Shown piece by piece: positions 35,595-56,826 of a stretch of DNA of 62,972 nt. The notes beneath the pieces are model-generated. The model did not search any database and was not told the DNA's origin. It saw nothing but the letters and a program-made list of their open reading frames with translations. Source of the DNA: Nitrospirota bacterium (GTDB lineage Bacteria; Nitrospirota; JACRHL01); NCBI GenBank assembly GCA_016212085.1, contig JACRHL010000003.1, positions 385,178 to 448,149 of the forward strand, in the 5' to 3' direction. Position numbers and translations under genes: made by a program. Each line of letters opens with the position of its first letter. Position 1 is the first letter of the stretch.

Positions 35595-35633
35595 CAAAAA
35601 AAAGGCGGCGGCCCCCCTGAGGGAACCGCCGCC
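35595..35633 (-). terminator. Rho-independent terminator of the FKBP gene
   Basis: GGCGGCGG (35604-35611) pairs with CCGCCGCC (35626-35633), extended by inner CCCC/GGGG pairs. The A-run at 35596-35603 gives U8 on the minus strand. Confidence 0.92.
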
Positions 35634-35653
35634 CTTGTCTCCGTCCGCCGCGT

Positions 35654-36361
35654 TTAGTGCGAGAAGCCCGCGTGCGGCGAGGCCTGCACCGCCAGCAGCT
35701 CGATCTCGAACAGCAGCGTCTCGTTGGGGCCGATGCCGTGGCCGGTGCCGCGCTCGCCGTAGGCCAAGTCCGAGGGGATGGCCACCTCGATCTTCTCGCC
35801 CTCGTGCATGAGCTGGAGCACCTCCTCCCAGCCCTTGATGACTCCGTTCACGGGGAAGCTGGCCGGCTCGTTGCGGGAGTAGGAGCTGTCGAACTCCTCG
35901 CCGTTGAGCAGCGTGCCGCGGTAGTGCACGGTCACCATGTCGGCGGGGGAGGGGATCTTGCCGGTGCCTTCCTGGATCACCTTGTACTGGAGGCCGCTGT
36001 CGGTCACCTTCACGCCCGGCTTCTGCTTGTTGGCGGCCAGGTACTCGGCGCCCTTGGCCTTGTTCTCCGCGGCGGCGCGCTCGGCGGCGGCCACCTTCTC
36101 GGTCTGGAGCGACACCATCGCCTCCTGGATCGCCTCTTCCGACAGGCGCGACTCGCGGCCGGCCATCACGTCGGCGATGGCGGCGGCCAGGGCCGCCTGG
36201 TCCACCGGGATGCCCTCGGCCTTGAGGCTGTCACCGATCTGCAGGCCCACCGCATAGCTGATCTTGGCGTCGCGGCCGTCCAGCTTCACGTCGTCCGCGG
36301 CCACCGCCTGGGTGGCCACCAGGGCGGTCAGCGCCGCCGCAAACAATCCGATCTTCATCAA
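35654..36361 (-). CDS. FKBP-type peptidyl-prolyl cis-trans isomerase, periplasmic
   Basis: A 235-residue exported isomerase of the Mip/FkpA/FklB type. The signal peptide ends at AVA (residues 1-22). The N-terminal dimerisation helix region spans about 25-120 (SYAVGLQIGDSLKAEG, EEAIQEAMVSLQ). The FKBP catalytic domain covers about 125-228, with GDMVTVHYRGTLLNGEEFDSSY-type residues, GWEEVLQLMHEGEK and IPSDLAYGERG. It helps fold envelope proteins. It has its own terminator. A candidate structured RNA ends about 77 nt upstream of its start. Confidence 0.94.
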   Translation of the reverse strand: MMKIGLFAAALTALVATQAVAADDVKLDGRDAKISYAVGLQIGDSLKAEGIPVDQAALAAAIADVMAGRESRLSEEAIQEAMVSLQTEKVAAAERAAAENKAKGAEYLAANKQKPGVKVTDSGLQYKVIQEGTGKIPSPADMVTVHYRGTLLNGEEFDSSYSRNEPASFPVNGVIKGWEEVLQLMHEGEKIEVAIPSDLAYGERGTGHGIGPNETLLFEIELLAVQASPHAGFSH

Positions 36362-36438: not shown

Positions 36439-36663
36439 AAAAAAAAGAGCGTGGATCCTTGCCCCGGTCCGCCGGCCCTCCCTGCCGCGCGCCCGGTGCG
36501 CCGCTCCACGCCCTTCCAAGAGCTAGAGGCTCGGGCGATTTTTCATCACCCGAGGGGGACGAGGCGCACAGCCCGGTCTCTCACCCGCCGGGCCGGATGC
36601 CCCCATGCCGTGGAATGGGAGCCCGCGTCCCCCTCAGGAACCCTTTGTGGTTCCCTCGCCTCC
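36439..36663 (-). ncRNA. Candidate structured non-coding RNA, about 225 nt
   Basis: On the minus strand an extended -10 is followed 6-7 nt later by the first base of a closing stem: GCCTC (36658-36662) pairs with GAGGC (36526-36530). Inside are GGAACC/GGTTCC (36637-36642, 36649-36654), GAGGGGGACG/CGTCCCCCTC (36552-36561, 36626-36635), GCCCGG/CCGGGC (36571-36576, 36588-36593), CCCAT/ATGGG (36602-36606, 36615-36619) and CTCGGG/CCCGAG (36530-36535, 36549-36554). A 9-bp stem (36447-36455 with 36505-36513) then ends in U8 (36439-36446). It fits none of tmRNA, 4.5S, 6S, RNase P or the common riboswitches as I know them. It may be free-standing or a leader of the FKBP gene. No gene is seen in 36362-36785. 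Confidence 0.6.
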
Positions 36664-36669
36664 ACTTAT

Positions 36670-36678
36670 ATTTTACCA
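36670..36678 (-). promoter_or_regulatory. Extended -10 promoter of the candidate RNA
   Basis: TGGTAAAAT on the minus strand fits the TGnTATAAT pattern with one change. TTGTCA lies further upstream but at about 22 nt spacing, too far for a standard -35. Confidence 0.5.
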
Positions 36679-36785
36679 CCCGCGGCGCATGATGGGGTGA
36701 CAATCCGGCCCATGAACAACCCGCATATTATTGTTTTGCATGATTTTTATCATCGCCGCCCGGCACAACCGGCGCCCCGTGAAAA

Positions 36786-38069
36786 TCACCGATCCGGCGC
36801 GCTCCCCTCCACGGTGGTGATGCGCAGCTCCACGCGGCGGTTCCGGGCGCGCCCGTCGTCGGTAACGTTTTCGGTGACCGGGGCGCCCTCGCCGTAGCCG
36901 CGCGCCGTCAGCATGGCCGCGGGCACGCCCGCTTGCACCAGGTGCTGGCGCACCGCCTCGGCCCGGTGCTGGGAGAGGCGCAGGTTGTAATGCTCCGAAC
37001 CCCGGCTGTCCGTATGCCCGGCCACCTCCACCTGGAGGGCGCGCTGGGACTTGAGTGTGGCGGCCACCCCGTTGAGCACGGTCCTGGCGGGGTCCGTCAG
37101 GCGCGCCGAGTCGAAGTGGAAGTGCACCCCCTCCAGGCGGATCACCTTCACCTCCGGGCAGCCGCGCGCATCCACGCGGGTGGCCAGACGGGTGCCGGGG
37201 CACAGGTCCTGGCGGTTCACCACGCCGTCCTGGTCCGTGTCCGGCTCGCAACCGCGGTGATCCACGGTGGCGCGGGGCAGGGTGCCGGGGCACAGGTCCA
37301 TGAGGTCGATCACGCCATCCTGGTCCGTATCGGCGGGGCATCCGGCGGGGTTGACCACGGCCCCCGGCGGCGTGTCCGGGCAGCGGTCCAGGTCGTCGGT
37401 CACCCCGTCGCCATCCGTGTCGCCGGGCGGCGGCGGGGCGGGAGGGGGCGGCGCCGGGGCCTTTTTGGGGCCGCCGAAGGGCAGCACCAGGCCCACCCCC
37501 AGGCGCCAGTCCGCATAGGGCGGGGCGGTGCCAAAGGCCTCCGGCTCGCGGGTCTGGCGGTAGGCCACGTCCACCCGCATTGTCAGCGGCGACGCGGGCA
37601 GCCAGCGCACGAACCCGGCCCCCAGCTCGCCATACACCTTGGGGCCGCCGGCACCGGCCCGGTTCATCCAGGCCATGCCGGTGCCGGCGCGCGCGAACGG
37701 CGAGAAGGCGGGGGTCTGGTTGAAAAAGCGCAGCAGCGCCGCACCGGCGCCAATCTGGTAGTGCTCGCCGCCGGGGTCGCCCAGCCGGCCGAAAAAGCCG
37801 TCCGCCTCCAGGGCCCACCGGTCACCCAGGTTCATTCCGGCGGCCGCCCCCACCTGCCATCCGTCAGTGGTTTGACGATCACTGTCCGGATAGACGGCGC
37901 CCGGCGCCACCATCAGGTAGCTCCCCGGCTCGGCCCCGGCGGGGGCGGCCAGCGCCAGCCACGGCAGGGCGCACAGGGGCAGCACGGCCAGCGCGGCGCG
38001 CCACGTTCGGAACACCCTATGCCGGATCGGCGTGGTCACGGCGGAGGCATGGTGCAAGACCGGCGCCAC
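36786..38069 (-). CDS. OmpA-family outer-membrane protein with thrombospondin type 3 repeats
   Basis: A 427-residue exported protein. After a signal peptide (ALAVLPLCALPWLALAAPAGA), residues about 50-200 form an 8-strand barrel (VGAAAGMNLGDRWALEADGFF, WRLGVGLVLPFGG). A Pro-rich linker leads to three calcium-binding thrombospondin-3 type repeats (DTDGDGVTDDLDRCPD and two DTDQDGV versions) at about 218-300. The OmpA C-terminal peptidoglycan-binding domain follows (FDSARLTD, GHTDSRGSEHYNLRLSQHRA). It is an OprF-like tether between outer membrane and wall. The start is GTG at 38069 or GTG at 38039; neither has a strong ribosome site. Confidence 0.92.
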   Translation of the reverse strand: MAPVLHHASAVTTPIRHRVFRTWRAALAVLPLCALPWLALAAPAGAEPGSYLMVAPGAVYPDSDRQTTDGWQVGAAAGMNLGDRWALEADGFFGRLGDPGGEHYQIGAGAALLRFFNQTPAFSPFARAGTGMAWMNRAGAGGPKVYGELGAGFVRWLPASPLTMRVDVAYRQTREPEAFGTAPPYADWRLGVGLVLPFGGPKKAPAPPPPAPPPPGDTDGDGVTDDLDRCPDTPPGAVVNPAGCPADTDQDGVIDLMDLCPGTLPRATVDHRGCEPDTDQDGVVNRQDLCPGTRLATRVDARGCPEVKVIRLEGVHFHFDSARLTDPARTVLNGVAATLKSQRALQVEVAGHTDSRGSEHYNLRLSQHRAEAVRQHLVQAGVPAAMLTARGYGEGAPVTENVTDDGRARNRRVELRITTVEGSAPDR

Positions 38070-56275: not shown

Positions 56276-56310
56276 ATAGTCGCTAGGTGGTTTTTTTTGG
56301 GAGAAATCGC

Positions 56311-56826
56311 GTGAGAGAGGACGTCCCACAATGGAATTGGTATAATGCTCAATTTATGTTTGCATTCGAAGATCAGATTCGATCGAACCCAACCCAACCG
56401 ATAGGCAAATTTTTCGAGGACTTCAAAACGAAAAATGGGTTGGAAATGATCCCGTTCCACTTAAAAAATCCAGGCGTGGTTATCTCGCTACTGTATGCGC
56501 TGCTGGTCGTCCCGATGGAGATATGGGAGCGCGACCCGAAGCGCACAGGCTTCCCGTTCAAAACACAAGGTGAATTCCGTATCACGAAGGGAAAACATAA
56601 GGATACATGGGATTTTTTGCGCTTACTCAGGAACTCAGTATCCCATGCGCATTTCACAATTTATTCCGAAAACAATATCTACCGCTTTTGGAATTCCAAT
56701 AAAGGCAAAATTGACTTCGAAACAGAAATCACCCAGGCAGGACTCGGATTGTTCCTTACCGAAATCGGAAAATACTACGTAAATGAAGTAAAACAAAAAA
56801 GCGCACCACATTTATCGCAGCTATAG
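56311..56826 (+). CDS. Low-GC HEPN-like protein
   Basis: A 171-residue protein, far richer in A/T than both neighbours. Its central helix WDFLRLLRNSVSHAHF carries RNSVSH, the RxxxxH signature of HEPN domains, many of which are RNases in toxin-antitoxin and phage-defence systems. The rest is helical and charged (GKFFEDFKTKNGLEMIPF, ALLVVPMEIWERDPK). No partner gene is present. The GTG at 56311 has GGGAG 7 nt upstream; the GTG at 56287 has none. It lies exactly between the lon and msrB stops, so it looks like a one-gene insertion. Confidence 0.72.
   Translation: MREDVPQWNWYNAQFMFAFEDQIRSNPTQPIGKFFEDFKTKNGLEMIPFHLKNPGVVISLLYALLVVPMEIWERDPKRTGFPFKTQGEFRITKGKHKDTWDFLRLLRNSVSHAHFTIYSENNIYRFWNSNKGKIDFETEITQAGLGLFLTEIGKYYVNEVKQKSAPHLSQL

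Follow-up and report, generated by a model that had tools for sequence, protein, structure and literature searches.

Orphan structured RNA candidates have been described by comparative genomics, in one study as a set of 104 motifs (PMC2864571) and elsewhere through genome-wide intergenic searches (PMC8632094). Like these candidates, the RNA described here is a conserved intergenic structured RNA that is supported by covariation and has no assigned function, but Rfam 15, which includes many motifs of this sort and is the one collection with which the comparison was made, contains no match to it, and it is represented by three sequences from a single bacterial family. 6S RNA (RF00013) is of similar size, likewise has a closing stem and comes from one gene; it stands alone and has its own promoter, as is predicted for the RNA described here. 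However, 6S RNA is a long hairpin with a central bubble, whereas the RNA in our window is a four-way junction with short P2 and P4 hairpins, and the 6S model does not match it. RNase P RNA and SRP RNA share its compact multi-helix character, but these have loci of their own in the same genome with strong scores, and their models do not match here. FKBP-linked leaders and riboswitches also lie just upstream of a gene and carry a terminator-like stem; in contrast to these, the association with FKBP is lost in one of the relatives of the RNA (G003) and no riboswitch model matches it.

Taken together, the conservation, the common fold and the promoter and terminator elements that can be read from the sequence lead us to a model in which the predicted minus-strand RNA listed in Table 1 is a real, free-standing, trans-acting structured RNA, a reading to which we assign a probability of roughly two in three (0.66). 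It very probably represents a previously undescribed, lineage-restricted structured RNA family, found so far in one bacterial family only. Judged against Rfam 15 it would be new as a family and ordinary as a kind, namely an orphan bacterial noncoding RNA. In its essential points the original prediction is borne out.

The window, that is, the whole stretch of 62,972 nt that was analysed, lies on contig G000:C15 of a 2.7-Mb genome and has a GC content of 69%. The RNA is held, on the minus strand, in a 424-nt gap between the start of the FKBP gene (36361) and the end of an OmpA ORF (36786), and its 3' end lies 78 nt ahead of FKBP on the same strand. The gap, sequence, strand and coordinates given in the original prediction all agree with the sequence, as does the extended −10 that it named (TGGTAAAAT, beginning at 36678 on the minus strand), with a pattern (TGnTAWAAT) that occurs just three times in 63 kb. 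GGTGG and the W-A-C/A-T stretch that follows it are also present in G002 (GGTGGTTTACT) and G003 (GGTGGAATACTAT). A sigma-70 promoter scan called nothing at the RNA locus, where the −35 element is poor; we predict a promoter at 36678 on the minus strand because of the extended −10 and its conservation in the relatives. At the other end, the T8 tract at 36446–36439 (−) is one of six runs of at least seven T in this GC-rich window. The terminator stem was correctly proposed to end in U8, although its length is 12–13 bp and not the 9 bp originally given. A scan for canonical short-loop terminators reported none at the 3' end of the RNA because the loop on this stem is branched and about 49 nt long, and termination at the U8 stem, though not textbook, appears likely from the sequence. 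The complementary strand also folds more stably than chance (z −3.2), so that energy by itself cannot decide between the two strands; the minus strand was assigned from the promoter together with the U tract and the copies in the relatives.

Table 1. Features of the RNA locus and its flanking genes (window coordinates; P1 to P4 are helices of the predicted RNA)
Feature	Position	Strand	Basis and remarks
FKBP-type peptidyl-prolyl isomerase	35654..36361	−	Pfam FKBP_C and FKBP_N; neighbour, outside the RNA
Predicted RNA, 228 nt, from the start site (about 36665) to U8	36439..36666	−	Fold z −4.8; homologues in G002 and G003
Terminator-like element, 12–13-bp stem (36517–36505 with 36455–36443), branched loop, U8 at 36446–36439	36439..36517	−	MFE structure and T-run scan
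Core four-way junction, closed by P1 (36664–36658 with 36530–36524)	36524..36664	−	MFE structure; P1[P2,P3,P4] also in constrained folds of G002 and G003
P4 hairpin, GGGUGAU-GAAAA-AUCGCCC	36533..36551	−	MFE structure; equivalent in G002 GGGCGGC/GCCGCCC, weak hairpin only in G003
P3, long-range 10-bp helix, GAGGGGGACG (36635–36626) with CGUCCCCCUC (36561–36552), closing a variable domain	36552..36635	−	100% paired in all three sequences
P3b hairpin within P3, loop GGGUGAGAG	36569..36595	−	MFE structure; loop sequence partly conserved, stem not clearly
P3a hairpin within P3	36599..36624	−	MFE structure; 4/6 pairs standard in every copy, with no changes other than G-C/G-U
P2 hairpin, GGGAACC-ACAAAG-GGUUCCU	36636..36655	−	Three pairs changed on both sides, window versus G002/G003
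Predicted promoter, GGTGG and extended −10 (TGgTAAAAT), no good −35	36670..36682	−	Sequence; kept in G002 and G003
OmpA-family outer-membrane protein	36786..38069	−	Pfam OmpA, 2.9e-23; upstream neighbour, same strand

The RNA has a folding energy of −129 kcal/mol, compared with −107 ± 4.6 kcal/mol for dinucleotide shuffles, and none of 200 shuffles folded as well. The closing stem and five internal helices described beforehand, the perfect 10-bp helix (P3) among them, are all found in the minimum free energy (MFE) structure, whose pairing is well defined, with most pairs at a probability above 0.9.

The relatives that we compared were three genomes of the same family (G001, G002 and G003), each of another genus, and, beyond these, genomes of the same phylum only. 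BLASTN of the region against 60 relatives found nothing, and a single-sequence covariance model (R1), run over 41 genomes and syntenic loci, gave nothing above noise. Read by eye, the gap upstream of FKBP in G002 contains a 13-base identity with the window (CGTCCCCCTCGGG). The copy in this genome lies further upstream, on the same strand as FKBP, and its alignment with the window RNA begins at the promoter and covers the first 100 nt. The syntenic gap in a sister genus thus revealed a family that plain BLAST and the single-sequence model had both missed. With a two-sequence model built from the window and G002 (R2), the best match in a third genome was G003:C72:607–718 (−), with 24 bits and an E-value of 0.047. 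Independently of R2, the DNA of G002 used as a query matched G003:C72:508–552 (−) with an E-value of 0.016, and this match corresponds to the 3' portion of that RNA, with order and strand as expected. The alignment of the G002 and G003 copies scores 115, compared with 34 ± 6 for shuffled sequences (p about 3e-8), and on their sequences these two RNAs are clearly homologous. The alignment of the window with G002 has a p value of about 3e-3, and the similarity between the window and G003 is weak (p about 0.06).

Models that contain the window sequence find the window RNA by construction, and we therefore made a leave-one-out test in which a profile of G002 and G003 only was run on both strands of the 63-kb window. 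Its top match was the window RNA (36680–36572 (−), E 3.2e-4), covering model positions 1–107 and with them nearly the whole profile, and the second-ranked match had an E-value of 5.7; this result is to be read with the limit that the G003 copy was first found by a model containing the window sequence. Once the promoter columns were removed from the profile, the window RNA was still at the top, with an E-value of 0.14. The promoter and the 5' 100 nt are colinear in the three genera. A three-sequence model (R3) run over 396 genomes of the phylum found the RNA in G000, G002 and G003 only; its other matches (20–26 bits) were, among those read, in or near coding sequence and without the junction, and their number was that expected by chance. 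The fourth genome of the family, G001 (540 contigs, 91% complete), yielded no copy, and downstream of its OmpA homologue there is a small gap only, with no RNA. No copy was found in the regions upstream of FKBP in G001, G003 and more distant genomes.

Conserved pairing in relatives, which the original prediction had put forward as a check, is found in P2 and P3, which pair in the three genera and contain four pairs changed on both sides. In the alignment used (A8), the P3 interiors of G002 and G003 were cut out. P2 has three double compensatory pairs among the three genera (one G-C/C-G and two A-U/G-C), and P3, which is paired in every sequence, has one pair that reads A-U, G-U and G-C in the three genera. 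The four double-changed pairs compare with 2.0 ± 1.1 in shuffles, of which 36 of 500 reach four, and with 0–3 when the partners are slid; this covariation, drawn from three sequences, is supportive and modest, and not strong on its own. When P2 and P3 are imposed, all three sequences fold as P1[P2,P3,P4], at an energy equal to the MFE for the window RNA and higher than the MFE by 2.8 kcal/mol for G002 and by 3.6 kcal/mol for G003, and the z-score of the G002 fold is only −1.7. G003, like the window, has a separate terminal hairpin after the junction, followed by T7, whereas the G002 copy passes from P4/P1 directly to U6. The P3 interior varies in length, being about 64 nt in the window copy versus about 155–185 nt in G002 and G003. 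The interiors of the latter two share extra conserved elements, for example a hairpin GG(C/U)C-GUGAU-G(G/A)CC followed by UCGCUAC. The G002 and G003 copies also have in common a 3' subdomain that is absent from the window copy. Either the window copy is a short form of the family or the G002 and G003 copies have expanded. A possible correspondence between the terminator region of the window and the GGAAGGGC...GGGGCAAG part of G002 and G003 was abandoned, as the two are not spaced colinearly.

How such an RNA could act is suggested by what has been conserved. RNA polymerase would start at about 36665 from the extended −10 promoter, and the transcript would fold as a four-way junction that is closed by P1 and has P2 and P4 as short fixed hairpins, with P3 as a rigid 10-bp helix bearing a domain of genus-dependent size. 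Transcription would then end at the GC-rich stem and U8, ahead of FKBP. From these elements we infer that the RNA is transcribed, acts on its own and would work in trans, with the likeliest mode being the binding of a protein, either as a scaffold or as a decoy that occupies the protein. The protein-binding step, taken alone, is a tentative proposal from the sequences; we favor it over seed pairing with mRNAs because the helices and the junction are what is conserved, with no unpaired stretch of seed length conserved among the copies. A more ambitious and rather unlikely extension is that the RNA could be part of a new ribonucleoprotein in a deep bacterial lineage, in which an exchangeable P3 domain is mounted on the fixed four-way junction. 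If this were true, the junction and a plug-in P3 domain that differs so much in length between genera would have separate roles.

Protein binding has a serious rival in base pairing to mRNAs. The RNA would then be a regulatory sRNA whose loops or single-stranded linker pair with mRNAs, for example those of outer-membrane proteins, in the manner of sRNAs known from other bacteria. A stand-alone promoter and a terminator-like end would suit such an sRNA, as would the outer-membrane genes nearby (OmpA in the window and, in G002, a divergent porin-like ORF without a Pfam match). However, the invariant blocks (GAGGGGG and CCCCTCGGG) lie within helices, unpaired seed-length stretches are not kept in the three copies, and the fold is very GC-rich and closed; we consider this alternative unlikely, while taking it seriously.

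The regulatory FKBP leader that the original prediction had entertained as an alternative is disfavored. In that model the RNA would be a cis-regulatory 5' leader, a riboswitch or an attenuator, with the U8 stem as a regulated terminator, and the short distance to FKBP on the same strand is as expected for one; the RNA of G002 is upstream of FKBP too. However, the RNA of G003 is divergent from NnrS, and the FKBP gene of G003 is located on a separate contig, where the sequence upstream of it differs. In G002, moreover, the RNA and FKBP are separated by about 480 nt that contain a TTGCCA-17-TACAAT element and another T6 stem, and the FKBP gene of G001 has no such RNA element upstream. Because of the location in G003, the intervening promoter-like and terminator-like elements in G002 and the bare FKBP gene in G001, we regard a leader as improbable and a free-standing gene as the better explanation.

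Less probable still is that the RNA belongs to a known family from which it has strongly diverged, for instance as a second 6S RNA or some other housekeeping RNA. The length of about 230 nt, the closed structure and the RNA's own promoter would fit, and some genomes of the phylum have a second 6S match, but the fold is a four-way junction and not a 6S bubble. Searching the whole window with cmscan and Rfam 15 at gathering thresholds gave 0 matches, and a search of a 451-nt piece at E ≤ 10 gave no meaningful match and no 6S, RNase P, SRP or riboswitch model. The original prediction had been unable to place the RNA among known motifs (tmRNA, 6S, RNase P, SRP and others), and this result bears it out even at that permissive threshold. 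The 6S RNA of the same genome is on G000:C8 (78.6 bits), its RNase P RNA (RF00010) is only on G000:C11 (307 bits) and its SRP RNA (RF00169) is only on G000:C2 (70 bits); ARAGORN, run over the window, found no tRNA and no tmRNA. On these grounds a divergent 6S, RNase P, SRP or tmRNA was rejected. A protein-coding explanation was likewise rejected, as a Pfam search of the RNA locus gave no match and no reading frame is conserved in all three copies. A retron-type RNA, which the paired ends had suggested, was set aside, with no reverse transcriptase recognised among the neighbours scanned. It is also very hard to believe that GC-rich intergenic DNA merely folds well here and has unrelated matches elsewhere: high GC does favor stable folds and frequent short matches, the other strand folds well too and the weak model matches elsewhere are chance matches in coding DNA, but the leave-one-out match to the window RNA, the colinearity of the promoter and the 5' 100 nt among the three genera, the upstream position shared with G002 and the double compensatory changes in P2 all speak against chance.

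When a structured RNA of this size retains its fold from genus to genus, it is usually of importance to the cell. The RNA described here is missing from the main RNA catalogue, and its lineage is known from few, mostly uncultured genomes; a search of the full-text open-access literature, which could miss much, brought up neither this kind of RNA nor any other RNA work for the lineage. The finding overturns nothing known, and its interest is that of a well-defined new RNA to characterise.

Several features of the neighbouring DNA deserve mention in their own right. Between the RNA and FKBP of G002 (contig G002:C41, locus L105), at about 5910 to 5635 of the minus strand, there is a second candidate RNA, in which a promoter-like TTGCCA-17-TACAAT is followed by about 270 nt of structured, GC-rich sequence and then a stem and T6; it has no match in Rfam. 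At about 6275 to 6255 of the minus strand of the same locus, a putative promoter (TTGAAA-17-TTTACT) has an operator-like inverted repeat, CCACCT...AGGTGG, in its spacer. Both relatives have an NnrS gene close to the RNA, in G002:C41 as the third gene on the divergent side and in G003:C72 immediately divergent; none was seen beside the window RNA.

Within the window, a strong intrinsic terminator (GGGCGGCGG...CCGCCGCC, with T8; 35598–35650 (−)) lies directly 3' of the FKBP gene. The OmpA-family protein upstream of the RNA has thrombospondin type 3 repeats, and many more copies of this repeat type occur in large ORFs of G000:C9 and C21. Further away, the end of a long ORF with a Lon-type-protease-like C-terminus is followed, at 56290–56650 (+), by T8, an extended −10 (TGGTATAAT) and then an AT-rich ORF, which in a window otherwise of 69% GC is possibly a recently acquired gene.
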